Positions 1,880 to 33,146 of a DNA stretch of 33,373 nt are shown piece by piece; within the stretch, counting starts at the first letter, position 1, and the number at the start of each line of letters is the position of its first letter. Source of the stretch: Candidatus Angelobacter sp. (GTDB lineage Bacteria > Verrucomicrobiota > Verrucomicrobiia > Limisphaerales > AV2); NCBI GenBank assembly GCA_035607015.1, contig DATNDF010000362.1:1-33373 (forward strand), in the 5' to 3' direction. The position numbers and the translations under genes are program-made. Under the pieces are notes generated by a model. That model was not told the origin of the DNA and did not search any database. It worked only from the letters and a program-made list of their open reading frames with translations.

Positions 1880-1955
1880 ATACCGTGGTGGGCATTAATT
1901 TGGGCCGGACCGATTGTCGCTGGCGCGGGTGAACGCAGTTAAGCTAAATTCCGGC

Positions 1956-3014: not shown

Positions 3015-3082
3015 TACCTGTAGAGTCACTCGCGCCTACGATATTCCGGGACACCCCGGCGTCCATGGCCGGTTGACTGAAG

Positions 3083-4833: not shown

Positions 4834-4962
4834 TTTTCCGGGATTGGTTGACCACGGGAACCGTTTTTCTGTCGCTTCCATGAATTCCAAGATGGCGGGC
4901 CCCGCAAAAGATTCCAACACTGTCCTGTGCCCGCCGTCAATTCTGGCATTGGAACGAAGCGC

Positions 4963-5000
4963 TGTCCGATTCGCGGACACGATCTTACAGAAAGCGGACA
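4963..5000 (+). promoter_or_regulatory. Candidate enhancer (UAS): TGTCCG-N5-CGGACA palindrome plus second half-site
   Basis: A perfect 6-5-6 palindrome, TGTCCG-ATTCG-CGGACA, lies at 4963-4979. A second, imperfect site at 4985-5000 ends in the same CGGACA half-site. The centres are about 21.5 bp apart, close to two helical turns. They sit about 75-95 bp upstream of the start expected from the sigma-54 element at 5041. This is the usual arrangement for a dimeric bacterial enhancer-binding protein; the identity of the protein is unknown. Confidence 0.5.
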
Positions 5001-5040
5001 GTAAAGGTTGAAACGCCCCGTCGAGGAGCGGCTTTTCCGC

Positions 5041-5056
5041 TGGCACTTCTGGTGCT
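5041..5056 (+). promoter_or_regulatory. Sigma-54-type -24/-12 promoter
   Basis: CTGGCACTTCTGGTGCTT contains the -24 box TGGCAC and the -12 box TGCT, with GG (5042-5043) and GC (5054-5055) exactly 10 bp apart as RpoN requires. It differs from the consensus at the base after TGGCAC and at one T before TGC. Transcription would start near 5067 and run into the small ORF at 5102 and then the hybrid histidine kinase at 5528. Confidence 0.55.
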
Positions 5057-5101
5057 TGGGAATGCTTACGAACTCGTCGTATCCCTGTCCGTTCGCCGCT
5101 G

Positions 5102-5356
5102 ATGGAAACGCTGGCGCAATACTCTGGTGAAGGGTTCACCAGGTTCAGGAATTCCGGCGATCATGTTGCGAGCAAAAAAATGTTCATGTCTGTATATCAG
5201 AAACAGCATTTGCAGGTTCAATTCCTGAAATTCGGCGTGGACCACAACGGCATTATCGTGCCGATCCTGAAGCGCGGCAAAGGCAACTTTGTTCAGTTGC
5301 CGCCTGTGGCCAAGCGCGCGAATGCCCAGGGTAAAAACTCCCCGCCATCGCGTTAG
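5102..5356 (+). CDS. Possible small hypothetical protein
   Basis: An 84-codon open frame just downstream of the sigma-54 element. I do not recognise the family. It is basic, with no signal peptide or membrane segment; the central part reads QVQFLKFGVDHNGIIVPILK. Codons in the second half end mostly in G or C, like the neighbours, which mildly favours a real coding sequence, but there is no clear ribosome-binding site. An internal ATG at 5180 would give a shorter product. It could equally be chance or a gene relic. Confidence 0.35.
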   Translation: METLAQYSGEGFTRFRNSGDHVASKKMFMSVYQKQHLQVQFLKFGVDHNGIIVPILKRGKGNFVQLPPVAKRANAQGKNSPPSR

Positions 5357-5527
5357 CGTGCGTTGCGGGCAAAGCTCGATTCGGGTTCAGCATTGATCCC
5401 TCGCCCAGGTTGGTGAGCGCGAAGCGAGAAAGCCCTGTGTGCCGGCTGGTGATGCCTGACCGCTCGCCACGACGGACCGGGCTGGCTGAAACTCCGGCGG
5501 CTTTCCCCCGCCAACAAAAGCAAAAAC

Positions 5528-7750
5528 GTGAACGACATTATCGGATTCGACCTGTATTTCCCCCGGGAGTCTCTCAAGGCGGCGTTAATTGATTCCTTTT
5601 TGAGCGTCAGCGTTCTGGTGGGTATTTTTTCCTACCTCAACCGCTACACCAAACGGCGCTACTTCAGTTTCTGGACCGTGGCGTGGCTCTTCCACGCCAT
5701 CTGGCTGGGGTTGTGCATCGCTTCTGTGAACGTGCGCGAAACCCCGTCGTTGATCATGATGAAACAGTGGTGCATTGGCGCTTCGGCGGTGTTCCTGCTG
5801 TGGGGAAGCGCTTCGTTTCTGCGTCAGCGGACGAAACCGTCCCAGCTCGCGCTCTTCCTCGCATTCCTGTTCCTCTGGGGTTATGTGGGCGCTTACCAGT
5901 TGGACAGCCCGCTGCAAACACAGTTGCCGGTGTTTGTGCTGGTGGGTCTGGCGAGTCTGATGACCGGCTGGTGTTTTTTCAAATTTCGCGCGCAAAACCC
6001 TTTTCTTGGCGCAGGTCTGCTGGCCTGCGGCTTCGCTTTGTGGGGAATTTACATCGGCGCGTACCCGTTTTTTCAGGGCTCCGACCAACTGATCAGCTCG
6101 GGCTATTTTATTTCGGCAGTGCTCCAGCTTTTTATCGCGGTGAGCATGATCATCCTGGCGCTGGAGGAGGTTCGGCACACGAACCACCGGGCGTTTCAGA
6201 GGATCCGTACCTACAAAACAAAAACCGACTTTCTGCAAAAAAAAGTCCTCTCCACCGAGGAACGCTATCGCAGCCTGTTCGACCAGGCCAGCGAGGGCAT
6301 CGTCATTGCCGACGCGGAGGACCTGCGGATTCTTGAGTTGAATCAGACGGCGAAGCGGCTCCTGGGGATTAACCATGCCGACTCCAATGCGTTGTCGAGC
6401 TTTTGTCAGCTGCATCCGGAGCCACAACCGTCACCTCAGACCGGGCCCGAGTGGTTCGCCGCGATCTGCCGCCACCGCCACTTGAACCTGGTGCGGCGCG
6501 ACGGCGGAGCCACGCCGACGGAGGCGGACGGGGCGCCGATCAGTTTTGAAGGCCGCGCCGCCTACCAGTTCTTTTTGCGCGAACTGACCGAACGCGCGCG
6601 CCTGGAACAACAGCTTCGCCAGGCGGAAAAATTATCCGCACTTGGGCAGATGATTTCCGGGGTGGCCCACGAATTAAACAACCCTCTGGCGGTCATCAAA
6701 GGGTACCTTGAACTCATCCTCCGCCGGGACGAATTGAAGATGCAAACGCGAACCGACCTCGAAAAGGTTGCGAATGAAAGCAACCGCGCCGCCAAACTTG
6801 TGAACAATTTTCTTTCCTTTGCGCGCGAACAGCCAACACACCGCGAGGCGGTGGATTTGAACGAACTGGTCAAACGCGTGGCAGAGTTGCGCCGACTGGA
6901 CCTGCAGAACAGCCGGGTGGAACTGCGGCTGCACCTCGACCCGGAATTGCCTTCGACCCACGCCGACCCTGACCAGATTCAGCAGGTGCTGGTCAACCTG
7001 CTTAACAACTCAATTCATGCGCTCTCGGAAACGCCGCGACCGGGGCGGGTGCAGATTTCCACACAACGAAAAGAGGACACCGTCAAGATCACGGTGGAGG
7101 ACAACGGCCCCGGGGTTCCGCCGGAAGTGTTGCCCTACATTTTCGAGCCGTTCTTCACCACCAAGGACGTCGGCAAAGGGACCGGGCTTGGGTTATCGAT
7201 CGCCCACAGCATTCTGGCCGATCACGGCGGAAGGATCGCCTACGAGCCGTCGGCGATCGGGGGCGCCGGTTTTGTTCTCGAATTGCCCGTTGTCAGTCCT
7301 GACATCGAAGCGGACTCCCCGGCTCAACCCGCTGTGTTGCCCGCGTGTAATGATGCTCCAGCCGAACGCTCCGCGCGGATTCTCGTGCTTGATGACGAAC
7401 AGGCAATCGCGGAATTGCTTGGTGAAATGCTCGGACTGCTCGGCCATTCCACTACGTTATGCCATGCCCCGATGGACGCGTTGGAAATGATCGAGCGACG
7501 CGAGTTTGACCTGATCATTTCTGATTTTCGCATGCCGAAAATGAACGGCCAGGAGTTTTACCATCATGCCGTCCAGAAAAAACCGGAACTGGCGCGCCGG
7601 GTGGTCTTCCTGACCGGCGACGTGGTCAATGAGGAGACGCAGGCTTTTTTGCAATCCACCGGCAATCCTCATCTCTCCAAACCGTTCCAGCTCGCGCGCG
7701 TCGAGCGGATCGTGGAAGATATGCTGCAACAAAACGCGGCTGTCCCGTAA
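5528..7750 (+). CDS. Membrane-anchored hybrid histidine kinase (7TM-like sensor, PAS, HisKA, HATPase, receiver)
   Basis: A 740-residue hybrid sensor kinase. Residues 20-215 contain about six or seven hydrophobic segments forming a membrane sensor. A PAS domain follows (ERYRSLFDQASEGIVIADA, from about 240). The HisKA H-box is SGVAHELNNPLAVIKGY with phospho-acceptor His381. The ATPase domain shows the N box (NLLNNSIHAL, near 490), G1 (DNGPGVPP) and G2 (GKGTGLGLSIA, near 549). A C-terminal receiver (ILVLDDEQ, from about 616) carries the phospho-acceptor Asp666 in LIISDFRMPKMNG. No partner response regulator or output domain is encoded nearby, so the phosphate presumably passes to an unlinked protein. 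It starts at GTG 5528 with no evident Shine-Dalgarno sequence. The upstream sigma-54-like element could place it in an RpoN regulon. Confidence 0.93.
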   Translation: MNDIIGFDLYFPRESLKAALIDSFLSVSVLVGIFSYLNRYTKRRYFSFWTVAWLFHAIWLGLCIASVNVRETPSLIMMKQWCIGASAVFLLWGSASFLRQRTKPSQLALFLAFLFLWGYVGAYQLDSPLQTQLPVFVLVGLASLMTGWCFFKFRAQNPFLGAGLLACGFALWGIYIGAYPFFQGSDQLISSGYFISAVLQLFIAVSMIILALEEVRHTNHRAFQRIRTYKTKTDFLQKKVLSTEERYRSLFDQASEGIVIADAEDLRILELNQTAKRLLGINHADSNALSSFCQLHPEPQPSPQTGPEWFAAICRHRHLNLVRRDGGATPTEADGAPISFEGRAAYQFFLRELTERARLEQQLRQAEKLSALGQMISGVAHELNNPLAVIKGYLELILRRDELKMQTRTDLEKVANESNRAAKLVNNFLSFAREQPTHREAVDLNELVKRVAELRRLDLQNSRVELRLHLDPELPSTHADPDQIQQVLVNLLNNSIHALSETPRPGRVQISTQRKEDTVKITVEDNGPGVPPEVLPYIFEPFFTTKDVGKGTGLGLSIAHSILADHGGRIAYEPSAIGGAGFVLELPVVSPDIEADSPAQPAVLPACNDAPAERSARILVLDDEQAIAELLGEMLGLLGHSTTLCHAPMDALEMIERREFDLIISDFRMPKMNGQEFYHHAVQKKPELARRVVFLTGDVVNEETQAFLQSTGNPHLSKPFQLARVERIVEDMLQQNAAVP

Positions 7751-16538: not shown

Positions 16539-18176
16539 ATGAATTGGATTCCTCTGGTTGAACACGAGTTGCGGGCAGGCGTGCGCCGTCCCCGCACGTT
16601 CCGCACCCGGCTGGCGGCTGGCGGCGCGGCGGTTGGCATCTGTTGTTGGGGATTGCTCGTCTGGGCGGACTGGAAAAGCGCCGCTTCGCTGGGCCATTCA
16701 CTTTTGGAACTCCTTGGCTGGACCGGCTTCATCGGCACGGCGCTGGCAGGCTTGTTTTTGACCTCCGATTGTATCAGCCAGGAGCGGCGCGAAGGGACGC
16801 TGGGTCTGCTTTTCCTGACGGACCTGCGCGGGCGCGACGTGGCTTTCGGCAAACTTGCGGCCAAGGGATTGACGCCGGTTTATTGTCTTTTCGCAATGTT
16901 GCCCGCACTGACTGTTTCCTTGATTGTTGGCGGCGTCACGGCCGGCGAAGTCTGTCGTTTGTGGATGGTTCTGCTGAACACCCTTTTCTTTTCCTTGTCC
17001 GTGGCGATCCTCACTTCGACATTCTGCCGGCAGCAGCGCGCGGCCCAAGCAGTCGCCGTGGCGGCAATTTTTCTGAGCGTTTTCCGACTGCCGCTTTTGG
17101 GTGTCGGCACTGCTTCTGCATCCTCTTCTTCGCTGGTGGCCTCCTTTGCGTTTGTCTTCAGCCCGGCCTGCAATTACCTGCTGGCCTACGATGCACGTTA
17201 CCGCGGCGCATCCGGCTCGTTTTGGGGATCACTGATTGTGACAGACCTGTTGGCGTGGGGCTGCCTTTGGGCGGCCGGACGACTGCTGCCGCGGATGTCG
17301 TCGGAAGAAACAAGCTTCTTCATTCGGGCAACTGGCACCCGGTGGCCGCGCCTGCAGTCGCTCGGGGCGGCCCAACGGCAACGATCAAGGCGCGAGCTGC
17401 TGTCGAGAAATCCGATTACATGGCTCGCCAGCCGCGATGGATGGAGGCAACATTCAACCTGGTGCCTTCCCGCACTGGCCTTGTGGATCTGGCTCCGCTT
17501 CGACCCCTCTTCCCCGAGCGGCGCATCGGTGCAGATCAGTTTTGCCGCTTTCGTGGCCATTCATGCTCTCTTCAAGGTCTGGGTGGGCTCGGATGCCAGC
17601 CATGTGCTCGCCTCCGACCGGTTGAGCGGGACGCTGGAACTGTTGCTCTGCACGCCGCTTCAAACGCGTGAAGTCGCAGCCGGCATGTTGTCTGCGTTCC
17701 GACGCCGGTTTGCGGGTCCACTCGCCGCGCTTTTGATTCTCGATGCGGCGTTCGCCGTGAAAATACTCTCTGCGGGCGATCTGGACGCGGCGTTCGCGGC
17801 GGGAGCTGGCGCGGCCATGTTGCTGGCTGATTTCTACTGTCTTTGCTGGGTCGGGTTGTGGCGTGGGTTGACCGCGCGCGATCCGGTGCGGGCGATTCTG
17901 GCCACGCTCTGGCGCGTCTTGGTGTTGCCCTGGATTTTTTTTGCCGCCGGCGTCGGAATCTTCCGCCAGAGCACGCTGGCCCAATTCGCAGGAATGTGGC
18001 TGTTTATAGGTTTGGTGACGGATGTGGTTTTGTGGGTGAATGCAAAGGATTTTTTCCACGGACACTTCCGGGCAATGGCGTTGCGGCCATTCGGTGAGAA
18101 GCCTGCCCGCGTCGAAAGTAAATGGTCTCCCATGAATTGGGAGGAAGAGCCAGACGGTCAGACGACCGGACCGTGA
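16539..18176 (+). CDS. ABC-2 type transporter permease-like membrane protein
   Basis: A 545-residue membrane protein. It starts MNWIPLVEHELRAGVRRPRTF, a cytoplasmic helix typical of ABC-2 permeases, then carries TM segments, with the signature CISQERREGTLGLLFLTDLRGRDVAFGKL (coupling-helix region) near residue 85. The second half repeats the pattern (ASDRLSGTLELLLCTPLQTREVAAGML, near 365), so it looks like two fused permease halves. The C-terminus is hydrophilic (KWSPMNWEEEPDGQ). ATG 16539 was chosen because the family motif begins there. No ATP-binding subunit is encoded next to it, which is unusual; substrate unknown. Confidence 0.85.
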   Translation: MNWIPLVEHELRAGVRRPRTFRTRLAAGGAAVGICCWGLLVWADWKSAASLGHSLLELLGWTGFIGTALAGLFLTSDCISQERREGTLGLLFLTDLRGRDVAFGKLAAKGLTPVYCLFAMLPALTVSLIVGGVTAGEVCRLWMVLLNTLFFSLSVAILTSTFCRQQRAAQAVAVAAIFLSVFRLPLLGVGTASASSSSLVASFAFVFSPACNYLLAYDARYRGASGSFWGSLIVTDLLAWGCLWAAGRLLPRMSSEETSFFIRATGTRWPRLQSLGAAQRQRSRRELLSRNPITWLASRDGWRQHSTWCLPALALWIWLRFDPSSPSGASVQISFAAFVAIHALFKVWVGSDASHVLASDRLSGTLELLLCTPLQTREVAAGMLSAFRRRFAGPLAALLILDAAFAVKILSAGDLDAAFAAGAGAAMLLADFYCLCWVGLWRGLTARDPVRAILATLWRVLVLPWIFFAAGVGIFRQSTLAQFAGMWLFIGLVTDVVLWVNAKDFFHGHFRAMALRPFGEKPARVESKWSPMNWEEEPDGQTTGP

Positions 18177-18196
18177 CCACGCGCCAGGACGAAGGA

Positions 18197-18234
18197 GTCC
18201 CATTTGCGGGACGGCAAAATCCCACCATCGGAAT
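18197..18234 (+). promoter_or_regulatory. Candidate enhancer (UAS): GTCCC-N6-GGGAC palindrome and second site
   Basis: A perfect palindrome GTCCC-ATTTGC-GGGAC lies at 18197-18212. A weaker copy at 18219-18234 keeps TCCCA and CGG and is centred 22 bp away. They sit about 110-130 bp upstream of the start predicted from the sigma-54 element at 18310, the usual distance for an enhancer-binding protein. The half-site and the two-turn spacing resemble the pair at 4963-5000. Confidence 0.5.
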
Positions 18235-18308
18235 ATTCGGAAGAATAGCTTCTCGAAGAAACATTTCTATCGTGCCGTGTTTACAAGGAGTTAGTCGATT
18301 GCGAGGTG

Positions 18309-18325
18309 TTGGCACGGGCATTGCA
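18309..18325 (+). promoter_or_regulatory. Sigma-54 (RpoN) promoter, full consensus match
   Basis: TTGGCACGGGCATTGCA matches the RpoN consensus YTGGCACG-N4-TTGCW at every defined position, with GG (18311-18312) and GC (18323-18324) exactly 10 bp apart. Transcription would begin near 18336, leaving a leader of about 65 nt before the DUF4160 gene, and would proceed into the adaptor and the ADOP array. Confidence 0.85.
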
Positions 18326-18400
18326 AAAGGTTGTTTGTCCCAGTATTTCCGACCGGTCGTGGGAATGAAGGGCGAGAAAAAATATAAACGCTTTTCGTCT

Positions 18401-18661
18401 ATGCCAGTGATTTCAAAATTCTATGGGATTGTCATCCGGATGCTGATCGTCCGACCGTTTGTTGCGCATTTCCACGCGTTCTACGAAAACTGTGAATTGA
18501 TCGTCGGCATCGCGCCGCTTCGAGTCATTCAGGGCGATGCGCCCCGCCGCGTCCGCGCCATGGTAATCGAGTGGGCGGCCCAACACCAACAGGAGCTGCA
18601 GGAAGCTTGGAATCGGCTGGGCCGGGCGCAACCTCCGTTGCCGATCCAGCCGCTCCGATAG
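18401..18661 (+). CDS. DUF4160 domain protein
   Basis: An 86-residue protein matching the DUF4160 pattern over its whole length: MPVISKFYGIVIRM at the start, a histidine-rich HFHAFYE core, and RRVRAMVIEWAAQHQQELQEAW before the end. The usual DHxPPHFH core is changed to RPFVAHFH here. The family is often paired with a downstream DUF2442 gene in toxin-antitoxin-like or small regulatory loci; that partner is absent. Instead the stop codon is followed after one base by the ATG of the adaptor gene, so the two are tightly coupled. The frame is open back to 18122, but that part overlaps the promoter and is not family-like. Function unknown. Confidence 0.8.
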   Translation: MPVISKFYGIVIRMLIVRPFVAHFHAFYENCELIVGIAPLRVIQGDAPRRVRAMVIEWAAQHQQELQEAWNRLGRAQPPLPIQPLR

Positions 18662-18662
18662 T

Positions 18663-19931
18663 ATGGACGTCGCCCGACCAGACATCGCCCGCAAGCGCAG
18701 ACGCCGACGCGTCCTTTACTCGGCGGGCGGGCTCGCCATCCTCGTGCTCATTACCATCGGCCTGTCCCGGCTCCAACCTGCGGCGCCAGTGGTTGAAAAC
18801 CCGTGGACAGACACCGTCAAACGTGGCGAGATGCTTTGTCAGGTGCATGGCAACGGCACATTGGTGCCCGAGGAAATTCTCTGGATCCCGACCCTTAACG
18901 CCGGACGTGTGCAAAAAATCCTGGTTTTGCCGGGCGCGGCCGTGAAAGCCGACACTGTGCTGGTGGAGTTAAGCAATCCGGACGTCGAACAAGCCGCCTT
19001 CGACGCCGAGTGGCAGCTCAAGGCCGCAGAGGCGGACCTGGCCAACCTGCGCGTGCAACTGGACACGGCCCGCCTCAACCAGCAATCAATCCTGGCCACG
19101 GCACAGGCCAATTACAGCAGCGCCAAGCTCGACTTCGAAGTCAACGACGAACTCGCGAAGGCGGGCCTTGTCCCCGCGCTCACGCTGAAGCAGGCAAAGA
19201 CCAAAGCCGAGGAGCTGGCCAAGCTGTTGGAAATCGAACAGGAGCGTTTGAACATCAGTGCCGATGCGACCAAAGCCCAACTGGCCGCGCAACAGGCCAA
19301 AGTGGAGCAGTACCGGGCACAGCTTCAACTCAAACGCCGCCAGGTCGATGCCTTGAAAATCCGCGCCGGCATTGACGGTGTGTTGCAGAAACTGGGCGAT
19401 GCGTCTGCGACCGTGATGCTTCAGGAAGGCCAGCAGCTCGCCCCGGGCGCCAATGTCGCGCGCGTGGCCAATCCCGCAAAGCTGAAAGCCGAAATCAAAA
19501 TCTCGGAAACGCAGGCGAAAGACATCGCTTTGGATCAGAAGGCGCTGGTGGACACACGCAACGGAGTAATCCCCGGACACGTCGTCCGCATTGACCCGGC
19601 CGCCCAGAACGGAACCAGAACCGTGGACGTTGCATTGGACGGCCCCCTTCCCAAAGGCGCCGTCCCGGACTTGAGCGTGGATGGCACCATCGAACTCGAA
19701 CGGCTCAATGAAGTGATGTTCGTCGGCCGCCCGGTGCAAGGCCAGCCCGACAGCACTGTCGGAATTTTCAAAGTAATCAATGGTGGCAAAGAAGCCGTGC
19801 GTGTGCCGGTCAAACTCGGGCGCAGTTCGGTCAGCACGATTGAAATCGTCGAAGGCTTGCAGGTCGGCGACAAGGTGATTCTGTCCGACATGTCGGCCTA
19901 CGATACGCACACGCGGGTCAGGGTGAACTGA
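18663..19931 (+). CDS. HlyD/MacA-type periplasmic adaptor (membrane fusion protein)
   Basis: A 422-residue adaptor. A basic N-terminus (RKRRRRR) precedes one transmembrane anchor (residues 18-35, VLYSAGGLAILVLITIGL). A lipoyl-like half domain (RVQKILVLPGAAVKADTVLVELSNP, near 82) is followed by a long coiled-coil hairpin (about 110-230) and the second half (IDGVLQKLGDASATVMLQEGQQL). Beta-barrel and membrane-proximal domains complete it, ending GLQVGDKVILSDMSAYDTHTRVRVN. Such adaptors link an inner-membrane pump to an outer-membrane channel. It is first in line before the MacB-like ADOP permeases, 101 bp away, and would work with one or more of them. No outer-membrane TolC gene or ATPase is visible. 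Confidence 0.92.
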   Translation: MDVARPDIARKRRRRRVLYSAGGLAILVLITIGLSRLQPAAPVVENPWTDTVKRGEMLCQVHGNGTLVPEEILWIPTLNAGRVQKILVLPGAAVKADTVLVELSNPDVEQAAFDAEWQLKAAEADLANLRVQLDTARLNQQSILATAQANYSSAKLDFEVNDELAKAGLVPALTLKQAKTKAEELAKLLEIEQERLNISADATKAQLAAQQAKVEQYRAQLQLKRRQVDALKIRAGIDGVLQKLGDASATVMLQEGQQLAPGANVARVANPAKLKAEIKISETQAKDIALDQKALVDTRNGVIPGHVVRIDPAAQNGTRTVDVALDGPLPKGAVPDLSVDGTIELERLNEVMFVGRPVQGQPDSTVGIFKVINGGKEAVRVPVKLGRSSVSTIEIVEGLQVGDKVILSDMSAYDTHTRVRVN

Positions 19932-19944
19932 AGCGGGTGGGTCG

Positions 19945-19969
19945 TCCGCGGCTGGCGATCAGCCGGACA
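19945..19969 (+). other. Stable hairpin between adaptor and first ADOP gene
   Basis: GTCC, a GC bulge, then GGCTG pair with CAGCC and GGAC around the 5-nt loop GCGAT, giving nine base pairs, mostly G-C. No T-run follows, so it is not an intrinsic terminator; it could stabilise an mRNA end or set relative expression of adaptor and permeases. Confidence 0.5.
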
Positions 19970-20032
19970 CATCATGAACCGAAGGCGACAGCAGAGTGGC
20001 CGCGACAAGTCGGCCACGGCAAATCGAAAAGC

Positions 20033-22510
20033 ATGAATGATCTCAAATTCGCCTTCCGACAGTTGCTGAAGAATCCCGGCTTCACGGTTGTCGCGGTGGT
20101 GACGCTCGCGCTCGGCATTGGCGCGAACACGGCGATCTTCCAACTTCTGAACGCCGTGCGTTTGAAAACACTGCCGGTATCGAAGCCCCAGGAACTGATG
20201 GAAGTGCGGATTGTGGGGGGGAACCCGGGCCTGGGAATTTCTGACAGCGCGAATGCGGAGCTGACCTACCCGCTCTGGGAACAGCTTCAAAAACGCCAGG
20301 GGACGTTTGCCGGAATTTTTGCATGGGGCAGCGGCGAACTTCCCGTCGGCAGCGGCGTCGAGACGCGAATGACGAGATGCCTGTGGGCGAGCGGTGATTT
20401 TTTCTCGGCCCTCGGAGTTGCTCCCGTTCGCGGCCGATTGCTAAGCCCGGAAGATGACCGGCGCGGCGCGGGACCGGGTGGCGTGGTGATCAGTTACGGG
20501 TTTTGGCAAAGCGAGTTTGGCGGCGAAGAGTCTGCTATTGGCAAATCGCTGACGCTGGGCGACCGCACTTTCCAGGTCGTCGGTGTGACGCCCCCGGCCT
20601 TTTTCGGACTCGAAGTGGGAAATCAATTCGACGTGGCTCTGCCGCTGACCACACGTGAATTGTGGTGGGACAACGTGCTGGATCGGACAGACGCCTGGTG
20701 GCTGCGTGTCATGGGCCGCTTGAAAAGCGGCTCGAATCTCGCGCAGGCCGCCGAATACGTGAAAACAATCAGTCCGGGCATCATCGAGGCCACATTGCCC
20801 GTGGGTTATGGCGCGGGGACTGTCGAATCGTATCGAAAATTCCAGCTGTCCGCGTTTCCGGCCGGCACCGGCGTGAGCCAGTTGCGGGCCGACTACGAAA
20901 AGTCACTGTGGTTGCTGTTTGGAATCACCGGACTCGTTCTCCTGATCGCCTGCGTGAATCTCGCGAACCTGACCCTGGCCCGCGCGAGCGCGCGAGCGCG
21001 GGAAATTGCTGTGCGCCTCGCCGTCGGCGCGTCGCGCGCGCGGCTCGTCCGGCAATTACTCTCCGAAAGTCTTCTGCTGGCCGGGTTCGGCGCGGTCGCG
21101 GGCGCCTGGCTCGCGCATTTTTTGAGCCGGAGCGTTGTCTGGTTTCTCAGCACACAAGGAAACCGGCTCTCCATCGATCTGCACGCGGACTGGCGCGTGC
21201 TCGCTTTCACAAGCGCCGTCGCGATTTTGACCTGCGTGTTCTTCGGGCTCACGCCTGCGATCCGTTCAGCCCGGACCGCGCCGGCGGTCGCGCTCAGCGC
21301 CATCGGACGTGGCACGACCGGCAATCGCGAACACCTGGCCCTTCAGCGTGGACTGACGATTCTGCAAATGGCCGTTTCGCTCGTACTCCTTTCCGGCGCG
21401 TTGTTGCTGGTGCGAAGTTTTTGGAACCTGACCACGATGCGTCCGGGCTTCCGACAGGACGGCGTGTTCGTCACTCGCGTAAACTTCGCGCGCGTGAATC
21501 TGCCGGCGGGACGTCGCGCTGCGTTCAAAACGGAACTGCTGGACGGGGTACGATCCATTCCGCGCGTTGAAGCGGCGGCGCTCACGACTCATGTTCCGGT
21601 CATCAGCGGCAGTTGGACGATGGGCGTGCGCGTGACCGGCGCGCGGGGAGAGAAGGAAGGCTGGTCCAAGGTCGCGTGGGTCAGCCCCGATTACTTCCGG
21701 ACGCTGGAGATTCCGATCCTCACGGGCCGCGACATTTCCAAAACCGACACGACGACTTCACCCAAAGTGGCGCTCGTGAACGAGACCTTTGTCCGGCAGT
21801 GGCTTGAAGGCGCGAATCCAATCGGCGCGCGGGTTCGAACGGGAGCGGAACCGGGCTATCCGGAAGCGACCTACGAAATCGTGGGTGTCGTCAAGGACAC
21901 GAAATACGGGAATCTGCGCAATGAAATTCCACCCATTACGTTTGCGCCGGCGTCGCAGATTCCCGATCAGGGGACCTGGGCTACCATCGTCGTTCGCTCC
22001 TCCGCGCCGTTGCCGGGAATTATCGCCGCGGTCCGGCGGCGACTCGGAGAAGCGTATCCTGCGATCCGCATGGAAACGAGCGTCTTGAAAACACAGATTC
22101 GCGAAGGATTGGCGCGCGAGCGGTTGCTGGCATGGCTCTCGGGATTCTTCGGTGTTCTGGCGGCAGTGCTGGTGATGGTCGGGCTGTACGGGTTGGTGTC
22201 CTACACAACATTGTTGCGCAGAAACGAACTGGGCGTTCGCCTGGCCTTGGGCGCTCAGAGAAGCAAAATCTTGTGGCTCGTTCTTCGACAGGGACTCAAG
22301 TTGGCGGCCATCGGTATCGGCGTCGGTCTTGTTGGTGCACTCGCGCTGACGCACTTTTTGAGCAGCCTGCTCTTTGATTTGAAGGCGACGGACCCGGCGA
22401 CGCTGATCCTTACTTCACTGCTTCTTGTAGCGGTGGCTTCGTTTGCGTGTTGGCTACCAGCGCAGCGCGCGGCCAAAATCGGTCCGATGGAGGCATTGCG
22501 GTACGAGTGA
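20033..22510 (+). CDS. ADOP-family MacB/FtsX-type ABC permease (copy 1)
   Basis: An 825-residue duplicated permease of the ADOP type (acidobacterial duplicated orphan permease, TIGR03434). It begins [30 protein letters not shown], the array-wide leader with TM1, followed by a MacB-type periplasmic domain. FtsX block 1 is near residues 290-430 (LLIACVNLANLTLARASARAREIAVR). A second periplasmic domain and FtsX block 2 follow from about 705 (GLVSYTTLLRRNELGVRLALGAQ). It ends RAAKIGPMEALRYE. It lacks an ATP-binding domain, so an ATPase must be supplied in trans if it is active. ATG 20033 was chosen by matching the conserved leader; the frame is open back to 19937. IR-bounded cassette 1 begins right after the stop. 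Confidence 0.95.
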   Translation: MNDLKFAFRQLLKNPGFTVVAVVTLALGIGANTAIFQLLNAVRLKTLPVSKPQELMEVRIVGGNPGLGISDSANAELTYPLWEQLQKRQGTFAGIFAWGSGELPVGSGVETRMTRCLWASGDFFSALGVAPVRGRLLSPEDDRRGAGPGGVVISYGFWQSEFGGEESAIGKSLTLGDRTFQVVGVTPPAFFGLEVGNQFDVALPLTTRELWWDNVLDRTDAWWLRVMGRLKSGSNLAQAAEYVKTISPGIIEATLPVGYGAGTVESYRKFQLSAFPAGTGVSQLRADYEKSLWLLFGITGLVLLIACVNLANLTLARASARAREIAVRLAVGASRARLVRQLLSESLLLAGFGAVAGAWLAHFLSRSVVWFLSTQGNRLSIDLHADWRVLAFTSAVAILTCVFFGLTPAIRSARTAPAVALSAIGRGTTGNREHLALQRGLTILQMAVSLVLLSGALLLVRSFWNLTTMRPGFRQDGVFVTRVNFARVNLPAGRRAAFKTELLDGVRSIPRVEAAALTTHVPVISGSWTMGVRVTGARGEKEGWSKVAWVSPDYFRTLEIPILTGRDISKTDTTTSPKVALVNETFVRQWLEGANPIGARVRTGAEPGYPEATYEIVGVVKDTKYGNLRNEIPPITFAPASQIPDQGTWATIVVRSSAPLPGIIAAVRRRLGEAYPAIRMETSVLKTQIREGLARERLLAWLSGFFGVLAAVLVMVGLYGLVSYTTLLRRNELGVRLALGAQRSKILWLVLRQGLKLAAIGIGVGLVGALALTHFLSSLLFDLKATDPATLILTSLLLVAVASFACWLPAQRAAKIGPMEALRYE

Positions 22511-22551: not shown

Positions 22552-22923
22552 ATGAGCAAAAAGTTGAAAAGCTACAAAGACCTCGTTGTTTGGCAGAAGA
22601 GTCTTACTCTGGTGAAGCTGGACTATCAGCTTACGAGATCCCTTCCCGCAGATGAAAGGTTTGGCCCGGTTTCGCAGATTCAGTGCGCGGCAGAGTCCGT
22701 GCCCTCGAACCTCGCGGAAAGTCACGCCCTCAATACGACCGGCGAGTTCATTCAATTCATTTCTAACGCTGAAGGTTCGCTGGCCGGATTGTTGACGCAG
22801 TTGATCGTCTCGATAGAACCTGGTTTCTGTGCCGCCGATGGAGCACAGCCATTGCATCGGTTGATTGAAGAAATTCAGAAAATGGCGAACGCTCTGCGCC
22901 GTTCCCTCGCCTCTTGCCCCTAA
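22552..22923 (+). CDS. Four-helix-bundle protein, 23S rRNA IVP family (copy 1)
   Basis: A 123-residue protein of the S23/IVP four-helix-bundle family (related to DGR Avd proteins). The family signature is clear: [14 protein letters not shown] in helix 1, VPSNLAES in helix 2, [19 protein letters not shown] in helix 3, and [18 protein letters not shown] in helix 4. Compared with copy 2 (27864) several conserved residues are altered: NLAEGHAR has become NLAESHAL and ELETQ has become GLLTQ, which suggests relaxed constraint. The gene is not in an rRNA operon and no reverse transcriptase or variable repeat is present. The last codons lie inside the right inverted repeat. Molecular function unknown. 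Confidence 0.9.
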
Positions 22924-22929
22924 TCTCTC
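22906..22929 (+). repeat. Right inverted repeat of cassette 1
   Basis: A pyrimidine-rich 24-mer starting CTCGCCTCTTGCCCC. It encodes the terminal LASCP and stop of the four-helix-bundle gene and ends six bases before the ATG of ADOP copy 2. It is nearly identical to the right repeat of cassette 2 (28218-28241), with two differences. Confidence 0.8.
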
Positions 22930-22934
22930 GCCCT

Positions 22935-25371
<2,437 letters not shown>

Positions 25372-25379
<8 letters not shown>

Positions 25380-27825
25380 CCTCAGATTCGCCTTCCGCCA
25401 GTTGCTGAAAAACCCTGGCTTCACTGCTGTGGCCGTGCTCACACTCGCGCTGGGCATCGGAGCGAACACGGCCATTTTCAGCGTTGTGGATGCGGTACTG
25501 TTGCGTCCGCTCGCATATCCTGAGTCCGATCGATTGGTTTGGTTGAGCGAGCGGGGCCCCGATTGGTCGGGTGGATCCATTTCATGTCCCAATTTCACTG
25601 ATTGGAGGAATCAGCAATCGGTTTTTGAAAAGTTTGGTGTTTACAGCGGTAGCAATTTTACTCTCACGGGCGCAGGCGAGCCGGTCCGGCTGGCGGGGGC
25701 GATGATGTCGTCGGATGTGTTTGCGGCCTTGCGCGTCCAACCGGAAATCGGGAGGGTTTTCGGCGAAGACGAAGACAAGCCGGGTGGCCCGCCGGTAGCC
25801 GTGATCGGCCACGCACTCTGGCAGAATCGATTTGGCGGCGATGCCGGAATTGTCAATAAAACAATCAATCTCAACGGGAAAGCTTATACAATTTTGGGAG
25901 TAATGCCGGCGGGATTTGAGTTTCCCAACAAAGTTGACGTCTGGCTGCCGGTGGGCCCTCTTTTCGCTGAGTCCAGTTGGCAGAATCGAGACAACCATCC
26001 CGGCCTGTTCGGATTGGCGCGTCTCAAACCGGGAGTCACTCTCGAAAAGGCGCGAACCGATTTGGACCTAATCGCGGTTCGCCTCGAACAACAATACCCG
26101 GAATCCAACAAGACCCGGCGGGTCCAGATCGACAGATTATTGGATAACAAAGTTGGAAACGTCCGGCGTGCGCTTTGGATTCTCCTGGGAGCGGTCACTT
26201 TTGTATTGGTGATTGCTTGCGCCAACGTCGCCAATCTTTTGCTCGCGCGCGCGGCGGCCCGAGAAAAGGAAATGGCTCTGCGCGCGGCATTGGGAGCGGG
26301 CCGATGGCGAATCACCCGACAATTGCTCGCGGAAAGCGGCTTGCTCGCGCTCCTCGGCGCGGCCACGGGTTTGCTTTTTGCCAAAGGCGGGCTCCGTACC
26401 GTAACGGCCCTGGCCGGCGATAGCATGCCGCGCGCGGCCGAAATCAGTCTTGATCCGCGGGTGCTTCTGTTCTCGGGGCTGGTGGCGGCGCTCACGGGCA
26501 TCTTATTCGGCCTTGCCCCAGCCTGGCACGCGAGCCGCGTCAATTTGCAGGCCACATTAAAAGAAGCGGGGCGTGGAGCAACCGCCGGCCGCGCGGGTTT
26601 GCGACAGGGGCTTGTCATCGCGGAAGTCGCGCTGACGTTCGTTCTCCTGGTTGGGGCCGGCCTGCTGCTCCTCAGCTTTCATCGACTATTGCAGGTCAAT
26701 CCCGGCTTCGTGGTTGACCGTGTTTTGACTTTTCGCATCAATCCACCTGGAGACACGTATCAAACAGACGAGCAGCAGATTCTTTTTTGCCGGGCTTTGC
26801 TCGAAAAACTTCGCGCGTTGCCCGGTGTGCAAGCCGCGAGTCTTGCCTCACAGAATTCAATTCCCCTCCACGACGGCGGTTGGGATATGCGGTTCCTGGT
26901 TGAAGGAAGAGCCGAACCGCCGCCTCATCTTCAACCCTCGTTGCAGTTTCATCTCATTGCACCGGATTACTTCCAGGCCATGGGCATTCCGCTTCTGCAA
27001 GGACGTGATTTCACGGACCAGGACAATCGAGAGCGCCTGAGGGGCGCTTCATCCGGTAATGATTGGGGCGCCGGGCTCAACTCGGTCATCATCGATGAAG
27101 AATTCGCGAAGCGCTATTGGCCCAACCAGAATCCACTCGGCCAGCGCATCCGGATTCCTTTTGGAGAACGCGAGAAACAACCGGTCGTCACCATAGTGGG
27201 CGTCGTCGGACGCATTAAAGAGAATCGCTTAAGCGAGCAAGGCGGGTTGGTGCAGGCCTATTTTCCCATGTATCAGCAACCGCTCGGGAATATGGCGGCG
27301 GTGGTCAAAACCACCAGTGAACCCGCCGCGCTGCTCAGCACGGTGCGGCGGCAAGTTGCTCAACTCGACCCGACGCTGCCCATTTTTGAAATCTCCACCT
27401 TGAAAGAAATGCGCGACCATAATGTTGCGCCGGACAGAGTTAATCTCGGTTTGATTGGCGGGTTCGCCGTTCTCGCCCTGGTGTTGGCCATCATCGGACT
27501 CTATGGCCTTCTGTCATTCACGGTCACTCAGCGTCAAAGAGAGATCGGCGTGCGCATGGCTCTGGGCGCCCAACGATTCGATGTTCTCAATTTGGTGATC
27601 GGGCAGGGGATGCGGTTGATCCTTGCCGGCGTGGTCATCGGACTTTTTGGATCATTCGCTTTGACGCGAGTTTTAGCCAGCGTGCTTTTCAACGTCGAGC
27701 CTGCCGATCCACTCACTTTTATCACCGTGACGTTTTCACTTTGCGCCGTGGCCTTGCTGGCGTGCTATATCCCGGCTCGTCGCGCCACAAAGGTCGATCC
27801 GATGGAGGCGCTAAGGTGTGAGTGA
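25372..27825 (+). CDS. ADOP-family MacB/FtsX-type ABC permease (copy 3)
   Basis: An 817-residue ADOP permease starting [17 protein letters not shown]. FtsX block 1 is near residues 265-400 ([29 protein letters not shown]) and block 2 from about 700 ([24 protein letters not shown]). It ends [14 protein letters not shown]. Its start overlaps the stop of copy 2 in ATGAATGA. Codon use is somewhat less GC-rich than in copies 4 and 5 in places (for example 25600-26150), which may reflect a different origin of the body of the gene. IR-bounded cassette 2 overlaps its stop codon. Confidence 0.95.
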
Positions 27826-27863: not shown

Positions 27864-28235
27864 ATGAACCAAACAGTCAAAAGCTATAAGGATCTCGTTG
27901 TTTGGCAGAAGAGTATCGCGCTCGTAATGCGGGCTTATGAACTTACGCGATCCTTTCCCACAGATGAAACGTTTGGTGTGGTTTCGCAGATGGGTCGGGC
28001 GGCGGTATCAGTCCCATCGAACCTCGCCGAAGGCCATGCCCGGAAGACGACGGGAGAGTTTATCCAGTTCATTTCGCACACCGAGGGTTCATTGGCCGAA
28101 CTGGAGACCCAACTAATTTTGGCCGAGGAAATAGATTTCTGTTCGTCCATTGAAGCGCAACCCATTCAAAACCTAATCGAGGAAGTTCAGAAAATGGCCA
28201 ATGCTTTGCGCCGTTCCCTAGCCTCTTGCCCCTAG
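27864..28235 (+). CDS. Four-helix-bundle protein, 23S rRNA IVP family (copy 2)
   Basis: A 123-residue paralogue of the protein at 22552, identical in length, with the full family signature: [55 protein letters not shown], and [20 protein letters not shown]. Unlike copy 1 it retains the NLAEGxxR motif, so this is the better-preserved copy. ATG 27864 was chosen because the alignment with copy 1 starts there; the frame is open back to 27822 through the left repeat. It lies on the same strand as the permeases. Function unknown; IVP relatives are found inside 23S rRNA intervening sequences, but this one is between protein genes. Confidence 0.92.
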   Translation: MNQTVKSYKDLVVWQKSIALVMRAYELTRSFPTDETFGVVSQMGRAAVSVPSNLAEGHARKTTGEFIQFISHTEGSLAELETQLILAEEIDFCSSIEAQPIQNLIEEVQKMANALRRSLASCP

Positions 28236-28241
28236 TCTCTC
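28218..28241 (+). repeat. Right inverted repeat of cassette 2
   Basis: A pyrimidine-rich 24-mer starting CTAGCCTCTTGCCCC. It covers the last codons of the four-helix-bundle gene and ends five bases before the ATG of ADOP copy 4. It differs from the right repeat of cassette 1 at two positions. Confidence 0.8.
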
Positions 28242-28246
28242 GCCCT

Positions 28247-30721
28247 ATGCAAGACCTCAAATTCGCCTTCCGCCAGTTGTTGAAAAATCCCGGTTTCACC
28301 GCTGTGGCGGTGCTCACCCTCGCGTTGGGCATCGGGGCCAACACCGCCATCTTCACGGTGATCAACGCGCTCGTGTTGCGGTCGCTCCATGTCCCGGAGC
28401 CGGAACGGTTGGTGCGCGTGACGGTCTGGAGCGCACCCGTCCGCGACGAGGGTTTTCCATATGGATTCTATCAGCGGCTCTCCGAGCACGCGCCATCGCA
28501 CACGACCCTCGCAGCGGCGCAGCGCTGGATATCGAAGCGGGAACTTACGGCGACCGGTCTGGGCCAAACGGAACCGGAGGCCGTCAACGCCCAGGCGGTT
28601 TCGGGCAGTTTTTTTCCCGTGCTCGGGGTCTCCGCAATCGTCGGTCGCTCGCTTACCCCCGCCGATGATCGCGCTGACGCTCCGCAACCGGTGGCCGTGA
28701 TCAGCCACGCGTTCTGGCAGCGCCGGTTTGGCGCGAACCCGGAGGTCATCGGTCGCGCGATTCAGCTCGATACGGTGCCTTTCACGATCGTCGGCGTGAT
28801 GCCGGCGGGTTTTTCCGGCATCGAGGTCGACGGCCACGCCGATCTGTGGTTGCCCCTGCAGATGCTCCCGCAGGTTGACGGTGACACGCGGGACCTGGTG
28901 CGCGCGAGACCGGAAGCGGGCGAATGGCTGACCGTGTTTGGCCGGCTGAAATCCGGCGTCGCACGCGAACAGGCGCGCGCCGAGCTGAGCACGTTTTACC
29001 AGCAGCAGCTTGCCGCGCAGTTGGAGACGCGCGGCGCGCAATGGACCGAGACCCAGCGCAACAATTTCCTCAATCAGCCGCTTGAGCTCGAGGTCGCCGG
29101 CGCCGGCACGAGCATTGGCCGGCGATTCTCCCGGTTGTTTGGCATTCTCGCGGGCACGGCCGGCCTGGTGCTGCTCATCGCGTGCGCGAATGTCGCCGGC
29201 CTGCTGCTCGCCCGCGGCGCGTCGCGTCGGCGCGAATTCGCCGTGCGGGCAGCACTCGGCGCGCGGCGGGGCCGCCTCATTCGCCAACTCGGGGCGGAAA
29301 ACCTGTTGCTCGCATTGTTGGGCGGAGTGTTTGGGCTGGTTTTCGCCCGCTGGGGGACCGATTTGCTGGCCGGTTATTTGCCGCAACACGGCCGGGCATT
29401 TGATCTGATGCCGGACGGGCGCGTGCTGTTGTTCGCGCTGACGGCGTCTGTGCTGACCGGCGTGATGTTCGGTCTCGTGCCGGCGCTCCGCCTCAGTCGT
29501 CCGGATTTGGCGACGGCGATGAAAGACCAGGCGGGGCAAATGGCGGGCGGCGCGCGTGCGTGTGCGAACCACGCGCTCGTGGTCGGCCAAATCGCCCTCT
29601 CGGTGATCCTGCTGGCGGGCGCGGGGCTGTTCGTTCGCACGCTGCGCAACCTGCAGGGTCTCGATCTGGGATTTAAGCGGGACCATCTCGTGTTGTTCGA
29701 TCTCGATTTTCCGCGGACCTACGACGCGGGCCAACAAACCCAGGTGAATGCGCGGATTCTCCAACTGGTCTCGTCGCTGCCCGGGGTGCGCTGCGCATCG
29801 CTTTCCGGGGCCGGGCTCCTGAGCGGCAATACCGTGCGCACCCGATTTTCGGTCGATGGCTACACGCCGCAGCCGGATGAAAAAATGCAGGTAACGGCGG
29901 TTGTCGTGGGTCCGCGTTTCTTTGAGACACTGCGCATCCCACTGCTCCGTGGCCGCGAGTTGGCGACCGCGGATGTTTCCAGTCCACCCAAAGTCGTCAT
30001 CGGCGAGTCGATGGCGCGGCGGTTCTTCGGAGAGACGGATCCGATTGGCCGCATAATCCGGCACGGGCGCGAGGCGACGCCGTTCGAGATCATCGGTGTG
30101 GCGAAGGACACCACTTACCAGAATCTCCGCGAGAAGACCCCGCTGGAGTATTATGTGCCGTATTTCGGCGGGATGACCAATATTCCGCCGACGTTTTACG
30201 CCGACACAACCCACGATCCCTCGGTCCTGGAAGCCAACCTCCGCCCGATTATCCGGCAGGTCGATCCACGGGTGACGATCAGAGACATGCGCACGATGAA
30301 AGAGGTGATCGACGGCACCATCGTGCAGGAACGCGCTATTGCGCAACTGGCGAGCTTCTTCAGCGTGTTCGCGCTGATCTTGGCTAGCCTGGGCCTGTAC
30401 GGGGCGTTGTCGTTTGGCGTCGTCCGTCGCACGCGCGAGATTGGCGTGCGCATGGCGCTGGGTGCGAGCGCGCGCGAAGTGCTCGCCCTCGTCGTGCGGC
30501 AAGGACTCACGCTGGCGTCGCTCGGCTGCGCCCTCGGTCTCGCCGGTGCGCTCGCGCTCGCGCGGCTTGTCGCGAGCCTCCTCTACAATGTGAAAGCGAA
30601 CGACCCGCTCACGTTCGTGGCAACCGCGCTCGTTCTGCTTGGCATTGCTCTGCTCGCGTGCTGGCTGCCCGCGCGCCGGGCGGCCGAAGTCGATCCGATG
30701 GAGGCGTTGCGTTATGAATGA
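28247..30721 (+). CDS. ADOP-family MacB/FtsX-type ABC permease (copy 4)
   Basis: An 824-residue ADOP permease starting [17 protein letters not shown], like copy 2 and likewise preceded by a four-helix-bundle cassette. FtsX block 1 is near residues 295-430 ([29 protein letters not shown]) and block 2 from about 710 ([24 protein letters not shown]). It ends [14 protein letters not shown]. Its first periplasmic domain (VGVMPAGFSGIEVDGHADLWLPL) is unlike copies 2 and 3 and nearer copy 1. The stop lies inside the start of copy 5 (8-bp overlap). The opposite strand has a full-length open frame across this gene, judged an artefact of codon bias. Confidence 0.95.
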   Translation: MQDLKFAFRQLLKNPGFTAVAVLTLALGIGANTAIFTVINALVLRSLHVPEPERLVRVTVWSAPVRDEGFPYGFYQRLSEHAPSHTTLAAAQRWISKRELTATGLGQTEPEAVNAQAVSGSFFPVLGVSAIVGRSLTPADDRADAPQPVAVISHAFWQRRFGANPEVIGRAIQLDTVPFTIVGVMPAGFSGIEVDGHADLWLPLQMLPQVDGDTRDLVRARPEAGEWLTVFGRLKSGVAREQARAELSTFYQQQLAAQLETRGAQWTETQRNNFLNQPLELEVAGAGTSIGRRFSRLFGILAGTAGLVLLIACANVAGLLLARGASRRREFAVRAALGARRGRLIRQLGAENLLLALLGGVFGLVFARWGTDLLAGYLPQHGRAFDLMPDGRVLLFALTASVLTGVMFGLVPALRLSRPDLATAMKDQAGQMAGGARACANHALVVGQIALSVILLAGAGLFVRTLRNLQGLDLGFKRDHLVLFDLDFPRTYDAGQQTQVNARILQLVSSLPGVRCASLSGAGLLSGNTVRTRFSVDGYTPQPDEKMQVTAVVVGPRFFETLRIPLLRGRELATADVSSPPKVVIGESMARRFFGETDPIGRIIRHGREATPFEIIGVAKDTTYQNLREKTPLEYYVPYFGGMTNIPPTFYADTTHDPSVLEANLRPIIRQVDPRVTIRDMRTMKEVIDGTIVQERAIAQLASFFSVFALILASLGLYGALSFGVVRRTREIGVRMALGASAREVLALVVRQGLTLASLGCALGLAGALALARLVASLLYNVKANDPLTFVATALVLLGIALLACWLPARRAAEVDPMEALRYE

Positions 30722-33146
30722 TCTCAAATTCGCCTTTCGTCAGTTGCTGAAAAACCCCGGCTTCACCGCCGTGGCCGTGCTCACCCTTGCGCTCGGCATC
30801 GGCGTAAATACGGTTGTCTTCAGTTGGATTCGCGCGGTGCTGCTCGACACTGTGCCCGGGGCGCGAGATGCCCACCGGCTCGTCGTGCTCTGTCCGCGGC
30901 ACGTCAGCGGCCGTCTCAGCGACACGACGTCGGTGCTTGATAATCGCGATCTGGCGGCGGAGACGAATGCCTTTGTCGGCGTCACGGGGTCGCGCTACGA
31001 CGCGATGAGTTTGCGCGTGGGAAAGGAAATCGAGTGGGTCTGGGTGGAATCAACGGAGGCCAATTTTTTCGACGTCCTTCGAGTGACACCCGCGCTGGGC
31101 CGGTTCTTCCTGGCCGGCGAGGACACGCATCCCGGCGGTGACGCCGTGGCGGTGCTCAGCCATCGTTTTTGGCAGCGGCGCTTTGGCGGCGAAACAAACG
31201 TGATCGGCCGCGTGGTGGAGATTGCGAACCGTTCTTTCACCGTGATCGGCGTCGCGCCCGCGAATTTCTACGGAGGCATGGGCGGACTGCAATTCGACCT
31301 TTGGCTCCCGATCACCATGAGCACGGATTTCAACGACACGGCGGAAGCTTTGAGCCGGCGAAACTTTCGCGTCCTGCACACCTATGCGCGATTGCAACCG
31401 GGCGTCAGCATCGCGCGGGCCCAAAGCGCCGCGAGCGCCGTGATGCGCCGGCTTGAAACCGAATATGGGGACACGAACCGCGACGTAGGCATCGCCGTGT
31501 TGCCCGTCTGGAAATCGCCGTGGGGCGGTCAGTCGGCGCTCCTGCCGCTGCTTCGTTCGCTGGCTGTCGTGGCGACGCTGCTGTTGTTGCTCGTGATCGC
31601 AAACGTCGGCAACCTGCTGCTCGCCCGCGCCACGGCCCGGCAGTCGGAAATGGCGGTGCGCCTGGCGCTCGGGGCAGGGCGGGCCCGACTCGCGCGTCAG
31701 TTGCTGACCGAGAGCTCTTTCCTCGCGGCGCTTGGCGGTGCGCTCGGCTGCATGTTTGCCTCCTGGGGCGTGGGACTTCTCTTCAGACTCCTGCCTCCGG
31801 CGCCGCACCTCCCGCTGGGTTACGATGTGCATCTCAACGGAACGGTCCTGTCCTTCAGCGCCCTCGTGACTCTCGGCACCGGAGTTCTGTTCGGCCTCAC
31901 TCCCGCGTCGCAGGCCGTAAAGGCGAACCTCAACGACACGCTCAAGCAGGGGGCGCGCGCCGGCGTTTCCGGACCGCAGATCCATCGATTGCGAGGTTCG
32001 CTCGTGGTTTGCGAAGTTGCCTTCGCCCTCGTGCTGTTGGCGGGAATGGCCCTTTGCGCTCAAAGCTTTCGCCGTGCCCGGCAAATCGATCTCGGTCTCG
32101 ACCCGCGTAACGTCTGGGTCGCAGGCTTCCGACTGCCTGTGGTCGGTTACGATGACGATCGGACGCGAAGCACATATCGCCGCCTGCGCGAGAGCCTCGC
32201 CGCGCTGCCCGGTGTCGAAAGCGTCGCGCTTGCCGACTGGTTGCCGCTCGGATTCGAAGGCGGCAGCAGCACGCGCTTCGCGGCGGCAGGATACCAGCCG
32301 GCGCCAGGGGAACCGATGTCCGCCGGTGTGAGCACAGTCTCGCCGGATTATTTTCGTACGCTGCGAATCCCCGTCCTCGGCGGCCGCGAATTCGCCGAAC
32401 GCGATGACGCCGCCGCCGCGCGTGTCGTCGTCGTCAACCGGCTTTTCGCCGACCGCTACTTTTCGGGACGCAATCCGCTCGGATTGAAACTGGATTTCTG
32501 GTCGCGCGAATGGACCGTCGTGGGCGTGGTGAAGAGCGGGAAATACCGTTCCCTGAACGAGCCGCCGACGCCGTTCATCTACGTTTGCGAACCGCAGGTC
32601 GGCGACCGCAGTCTTGCGGCCGTCGTGCGCACTGACGGTGATCCGCGCGGCATCGCGCGGGCTGTCGAGCGGGCGGCGCTGGCGGTCGATTTGTTGCTCA
32701 AGCCGGTCGCGGCCCTGACGATGCCGGATTACACGGCCGGGGCGTTTGCCGTTCCGCGCATGGCGGCGGCACTGCTCAGCGCTGTCGGCGCGATTGCGTT
32801 GGCGCTCGCGGGGCTTGGGCTCTATGCGGTCATTGCCTGTTCCGTGAGCCAGCGCACGCGCGAAATCGGCCTGCGCATGGCGCTGGGCGCGCAACGATTC
32901 GATGTGCTCCGGTTGTTCGTGAAGCAAGGGTTGAAGCTCACCGGACTGGGAATTGTGATCGGTGTGATCGGCACCGCGGCCGCCGCGCAAGTGTTGTCCA
33001 GCCTGTTGATCGGCGTCTCCGCGAGCGATCCGGAGGCTTACTTTACCGTTGTTGCCATGCTGGCCGGGGTCGCGTTGATCGCCTGCTGGCTGCCCGCTCG
33101 GCGCGCCGCCAAAATCGATCCGATGGAGGCACTGAGATACGAATGA
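30714..33146 (+). CDS. ADOP-family MacB/FtsX-type ABC permease (copy 5)
   Basis: An 810-residue ADOP permease starting [19 protein letters not shown]1 reads TLALGIGVNTVVFSWIRAVLL, departing from the GANTAIF of the other copies. FtsX block 1 is near residues 280-415 (VIANVGNLLLARATARQSEMAVRLALG) and block 2 from about 695 (YAVIACSVSQRTREIGLRMALGAQ). It ends RAAKIDPMEALRYE. Its start overlaps the stop of copy 4, and a 39-bp spacer separates it from copy 6. Confidence 0.95.
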   Translation: MNDLKFAFRQLLKNPGFTAVAVLTLALGIGVNTVVFSWIRAVLLDTVPGARDAHRLVVLCPRHVSGRLSDTTSVLDNRDLAAETNAFVGVTGSRYDAMSLRVGKEIEWVWVESTEANFFDVLRVTPALGRFFLAGEDTHPGGDAVAVLSHRFWQRRFGGETNVIGRVVEIANRSFTVIGVAPANFYGGMGGLQFDLWLPITMSTDFNDTAEALSRRNFRVLHTYARLQPGVSIARAQSAASAVMRRLETEYGDTNRDVGIAVLPVWKSPWGGQSALLPLLRSLAVVATLLLLLVIANVGNLLLARATARQSEMAVRLALGAGRARLARQLLTESSFLAALGGALGCMFASWGVGLLFRLLPPAPHLPLGYDVHLNGTVLSFSALVTLGTGVLFGLTPASQAVKANLNDTLKQGARAGVSGPQIHRLRGSLVVCEVAFALVLLAGMALCAQSFRRARQIDLGLDPRNVWVAGFRLPVVGYDDDRTRSTYRRLRESLAALPGVESVALADWLPLGFEGGSSTRFAAAGYQPAPGEPMSAGVSTVSPDYFRTLRIPVLGGREFAERDDAAAARVVVVNRLFADRYFSGRNPLGLKLDFWSREWTVVGVVKSGKYRSLNEPPTPFIYVCEPQVGDRSLAAVVRTDGDPRGIARAVERAALAVDLLLKPVAALTMPDYTAGAFAVPRMAAALLSAVGAIALALAGLGLYAVIACSVSQRTREIGLRMALGAQRFDVLRLFVKQGLKLTGLGIVIGVIGTAAAAQVLSSLLIGVSASDPEAYFTVVAMLAGVALIACWLPARRAAKIDPMEALRYE

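Follow-up and report, generated by a model that had tools for sequence, protein, structure and literature searches.

The window, the whole stretch of 33,373 nucleotides that we analysed, comes from a soil bacterium and ends in a series of export genes on the forward strand (Table 1). A DUF4160 gene and an HlyD-type adaptor gene are followed by an array of ADOP-type permease genes. Such arrays are common in uncultured soil bacteria. To our knowledge, both their control and their cargo are unclear. In front of the DUF4160 gene lie a -24/-12 element and an upstream element (UAS) made of two similar copies.

Table 1. Features of the export locus and of the region in front of it.
Feature	Position	Strand	Basis
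UAS copy 1, palindrome GTCCCATTTGCGGGAC	18197..18212	+	conserved across order
UAS copy 2, TCCCACCATCGGAA, degenerate, 22 bp after copy 1	18220..18233	+	sequence comparison
Sigma-54 promoter, -24/-12 element	18309..18325	+	sequence match; conserved in relatives
Predicted transcription start, approximate	18336..18336	+	inference from -12 position
DUF4160 gene, conserved start MPVISKFYGI	18402..18661	+	
HlyD-type adaptor	18663..19931	+	
ADOP-type permease 1 (MacB_PCD, FtsX)	19937..22510	+	
ADOP-type permease 2	22914..25379	+	
ADOP-type permease 3	25372..27825	+	
ADOP-type permease 4	28226..30721	+	
ADOP-type permease 5	30639..33146	+	
Sixth ADOP-type permease, start only, cut by contig end	33186..33373	+	

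Exporter genes here and in relatives

The domain content of the downstream genes is as the earlier note described it. Permeases with MacB_PCD and FtsX domains accompany an HlyD adaptor, a combination expected of a MacAB-TolC-like ADOP exporter. Orthologues or relatives of the adaptor (P0002) occur in 28 of the 116 genomes searched, including the genome of the window itself. In relatives, the ABC ATPase and TolC are encoded in the same operon, and the gene order is activator, kinase, (TolC), element and promoter, (DUF4160), HlyD, ATPase 1, ATPase 2, ADOP array.

In the genome of the window, ATPase and TolC are found on contig C26, which carries an orthologue of ATPase 2 (80% identical) as well as a TolC gene (42%). 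C26 begins inside an ADOP gene and the window ends inside one; the two contigs may be adjacent. No sequence overlap was found between C26 and the window contig (C362). A close ATPase 1 orthologue is missing from the assembly (best match 51%).

Several details of gene content stand apart from this pattern. A second layout, with the array upstream of hlyD (ADOP array, ATPase 1, HlyD, sometimes TolC), occurs at L080, L082, L083, L084, L096 and L072, which have neither the UAS nor an activator of the clade described below. In genome G085 a 23S_rRNA_IVP-family gene (L087, 11181-11627) sits between hlyD and the ATPases. At 28226-30727 of the window two open frames of 831 amino acids overlap almost entirely on opposite strands. 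The forward frame is the MacB/FtsX permease and the opposite one is probably an effect of composition.

Promoter and upstream element

The -24/-12 element, TTGGCACGGGCATTGCA, has GG at 18311-18312 and GC at 18323-18324. It thus shows the GG-N10-GC spacing of a sigma-54 promoter, with TGGCAC at -24 and TTGCW at -12. We scanned the whole genome (4.58 Mb, 522 contigs, 96% complete). The sequence TGGCACGGGCATTGCA (18310-18325) is its sole perfect match to TGGCACG-N4-TTGCW, and TGGCACGNNNNTTGCW without mismatch likewise matches once, at the same place. With one mismatch allowed, there are 28 matches against 52 for the reversed control pattern (all matches counted). Hence, weaker sites cannot be separated from noise by scanning alone. 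The genome contains one rpoN gene, on whose presence the earlier note had made its interpretation depend beforehand. No sigma-70-like site was found in 18050-18750.

Sites resembling TTGGCACG-N4-YTGCR are present upstream of many hlyD orthologues, 29 to 701 bp from the gene. Because this distance varies so much, it is the promoter element itself that is conserved, and not merely its surroundings. The variation is partly due to the DUF4160 gene, which is accessory. Only some families have it between promoter and hlyD; in others the promoter lies 29-65 bp from hlyD. The earlier note's placing of DUF4160 behind the promoter applies at this locus and not in every family. On this comparative evidence it is close to certain that 18309-18325 is a sigma-54 promoter.

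The palindrome has no other exact copy in the window, and the degenerate second copy follows it in an exact 22-bp register. The earlier note recognised both sites, as a palindrome and a weaker neighbour. They are better described as one bipartite element of two copies, TCCCA-N5-GGGA-N8-TCCCA (18198-18224), with the palindrome as its first half. The perfect bipartite element occurs once in the genome, and its start at 18198 is 112 bp from the TGG of the -24 element at 18310. A one-mismatch copy on contig C501 has no -24/-12 site nearby and was left out of the counts. Across 320 genomes of the order, the perfect element is found 61 times and the reversed pattern 3 times.

Across the order, element and promoter are both retained in front of orthologous hlyD or permease genes, at a usual distance of 110-112 bp from each other, which settles in the affirmative the conservation that the earlier note had asked about. 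Of 44 distinct element-promoter pairs, 24 are spaced by 110-114 bp and 8 by 122-125 bp; a conserved site about 80-200 bp upstream is typical of sigma-54 promoters. Among 30 elements examined, 19 have a -24/-12-like site (score of at least 21) within 60-300 bp, most of them at 110-112 bp, compared to 2.5% of random windows. The genes that follow these pairs encode HlyD, DUF4160, ADOP or TolC. The spacings at first also seemed significantly phased with the DNA helix. We dropped this idea because the signal comes mostly from the single peak at 110-114 bp and because other periods fit equally well.

A candidate activator encoded elsewhere in the genome

As the earlier note stated, the window encodes no activator. 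The genome encodes eight strong Sigma54_activat (NtrC-type) proteins. One of them, on contig C92 (968-2329), has the domain architecture of an NtrC-type regulator: a receiver, a Sigma54_activat domain (AAA+, GAFTDA) and a Fis-type HTH. It is followed by its histidine kinase and then by an ABC-export gene pair. The earlier note had proposed a search for orphan activators. This does not fit, for the C92 regulator has its own kinase and many relatives encode its counterpart next to the exporter. Eight genomes of the order have activator and kinase immediately in front of UAS-hlyD. In one genome of the same genus the pair is also upstream, at a distance of about 9 kb and on the contig that bears UAS-hlyD. 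In the genome of the window the pair is unlinked to the operon. Nevertheless, the C92 regulator is 63-83% identical to the hlyD-linked activators of relatives, compared to about 33-45% for the other activators of its genome.

All aligned members of this activator clade have GAFTDA in place of GAFTGA, and their receivers share an inserted DTTSG. The recognition helix, GLSRSAFYRRLEK, does not vary among them, apart from L095, where the frame is interrupted. We considered GAFTDA as the mark of a dead activator and dropped this reading, as GAFTDA belongs to the variants that, in Desulfovibrio, were judged to permit activation (PMC4641369).

The activator and the exact UAS tend to occur together. 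In the 116 genomes, 13 have both, 3 only the activator, 5 only the UAS and 95 neither (Fisher p 8e-11, uncorrected for phylogeny). Where a genome has hlyD and enough upstream sequence, a UAS with at most 2 mismatches is present at hlyD in 14 of 15 genomes with the activator and in 1 of 8 without it. Most hlyD genomes that lack the activator have a different gene order (permeases-ATPase-HlyD). There are exceptions: G043, G051, G055 and G092 have the UAS and no detected activator of the clade, and G017 has the activator and no UAS at hlyD. Incomplete assemblies may account for them.

The UAS motif was derived within the order, and we tested it on loci that were not used for the derivation. A sample of the phylum yielded 16 further activator genomes, outside the order and within the same class. 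At 14 of these 16 activator loci the UAS is present with at most one mismatch; the reversed control pattern is found at none. Every one of the 18 UAS sites outside the order has a strong -24/-12 site downstream, at 111-114, 122-125 or 134 bp. In four complete or near-complete genomes of the same class (G418, G441, G591 and G594) activator and element share one locus. Several of the 18 sites stand immediately in front of the activator gene itself, which points to autoregulation at these loci. We do not claim autoregulation for the genome of the window because contig C92 carries no UAS within 2 mismatches.

Taken from sequence comparison, the pairing of activator and UAS is strongly supported by synteny, co-occurrence and the conserved recognition helix. 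The C92 response regulator is the probable activator of the window promoter. Further along C92, 3' of activator and kinase (L113 in G000, 3981-7136), we observed genes for an ABC ATPase, a PF16962 ABC exporter and a Yip1-domain protein.

A proposed sigma-54 regulon for ADOP-type export genes

We propose that 18197-18336 is the control region of a sigma-54 regulon that is run by a phosphorelay and dedicated to an ADOP-type MacB/HlyD/TolC exporter, and we regard this as very likely. The basis is comparative: a promoter and a UAS at fixed spacing, together with a single orthologous activator that is linked to them in relatives and co-occurs with them. Against the proposal stand the genomes with only UAS or only activator named above, the distance of the C92 pair from the operon, the missing close orthologue of ATPase 1 and the departure of GAFTDA from GAFTGA. 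The sigma-54 and enhancer interpretation in the earlier note is thereby supported. The C92 histidine kinase would phosphorylate its partner regulator, which would bind as dimers to the two copies of TCCCA-N5-GGGA that stand 22 bp apart. Once bound, the regulator would oligomerise, loop over about 110 bp and remodel RpoN-RNA polymerase at -24/-12. The resulting transcript would span DUF4160, the HlyD adaptor and the ADOP-type permeases. Permeases and adaptor, together with an ABC ATPase and TolC (C26), would then form a MacAB-TolC-like exporter.

Could the promoter match and the palindrome be chance, or a dispersed REP-like repeat with no regulatory role? One-mismatch promoter matches are no commoner than the control, and a few UAS matches lie at unrelated genes and have no promoter. 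Yet the genome has a single perfect copy of each element, 112 bp apart. In two orders, both elements have been kept in front of the same gene families, where a spacing of 110-114 bp is preferred. The activator loci outside the order already contradict such an origin, which we consider extremely improbable. Alternatively, the UAS is real and bound by some other protein, activator or repressor, in which case the C92 regulator would be no more than a neighbour that acts on different targets. The four genomes that have the UAS and no detected clade activator would fit this, as would the seven further activators in the genome. However, co-occurrence across the 116 genomes, synteny, the conserved recognition helix and the motif at 14 of 16 activator loci outside the order, in some cases directly upstream of the activator gene, all argue for the C92 regulator, and another binder is improbable.

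How far the transcript reaches is a separate matter. The sigma-54 promoter may drive DUF4160 and hlyD only, with the ADOP array expressed mainly from other promoters; the export system would therefore not be switched as a unit. Gaps of about 400 bp separate ADOP1 from ADOP2 and ADOP3 from ADOP4. In some relatives single ADOP genes have their own UAS-promoter, and hence some ADOP genes are off the hlyD transcript there. However, ADOP1 starts 6 bp past hlyD, and the ATPases and ADOPs of relatives follow close behind hlyD on the same strand. We judge split expression unlikely, though well worth considering.

Beyond this locus, our proposal extends to a single-purpose sigma-54 regulon across the Verrucomicrobiota, a generalisation towards which we lean. 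One orthologous pair of kinase and GAFTDA regulator, with its own bipartite enhancer, would have ADOP-type export genes (adaptor, permeases, TolC, DUF4160) as its only targets, although in some families the regulator probably also controls its own gene.

The components resemble known systems. Like the C92 regulator, NtrC, NtrC1 and ZraR are single proteins that unite a receiver, an AAA+ sigma-54 interaction domain and a Fis-type HTH, and they too have a kinase next to them. The solved structures closest to the C92 regulator are those of the NtrC family (4l4u, 1ny5) and ZraR. A further feature shared with the window is a tandem of palindromic sites that precedes -24/-12 by about 110 bp. Unlike NtrC, NtrC1 and ZraR, the C92 clade has GAFTDA, the DTTSG receiver insertion and ADOP/HlyD export targets. 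Similarly, MacAB-TolC exporters combine MacB_PCD and FtsX permeases with an HlyD-type adaptor, ABC ATPase and TolC, as the relatives do together. In contrast to MacAB-TolC, the permeases here are of the ADOP type, with duplicated domains, no fused ATPase and arrays of several paralogues.

Sigma-54 is well known as a controller of the cell exterior (PMC3162934). In 2025, sigma-54 promoters were found to be enriched at COG0577 and COG1136 genes in Opitutia and Bacteroidia, described as the first sigma-54 link to FtsX-type permeases (PMC12316311). That system shares its class of target genes and its phylum with the window operon. In the portion of the report considered here, the evidence is enrichment in a promoter scan, and neither a cognate activator nor an enhancer site nor the anatomy of an operon is named. 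We found nothing closer in the literature on ADOP and on combinations of activator, HlyD and TolC, and the activator and UAS appear to be new. With the pairing of enhancer and activator, what was a statistical association with sigma-54 (PMC12316311) becomes a regulon that can be tested, and TCCCA-N5-GGGA-N8-TCCCA provides a sequence handle for locating the target exporters. If the proposal is true, then the enhancer predicts which ADOP arrays work together as a single machine and is of use in the search for their signal.

Elsewhere in the window, a hybrid PAS kinase with a C-terminal receiver (5528-7750) is distinct from the kinase paired with the C92 activator. A type III polyketide synthase-like gene precedes those for a methyltransferase and an FAD-dependent oxidoreductase (1914-4833), possibly as a small biosynthetic operon.
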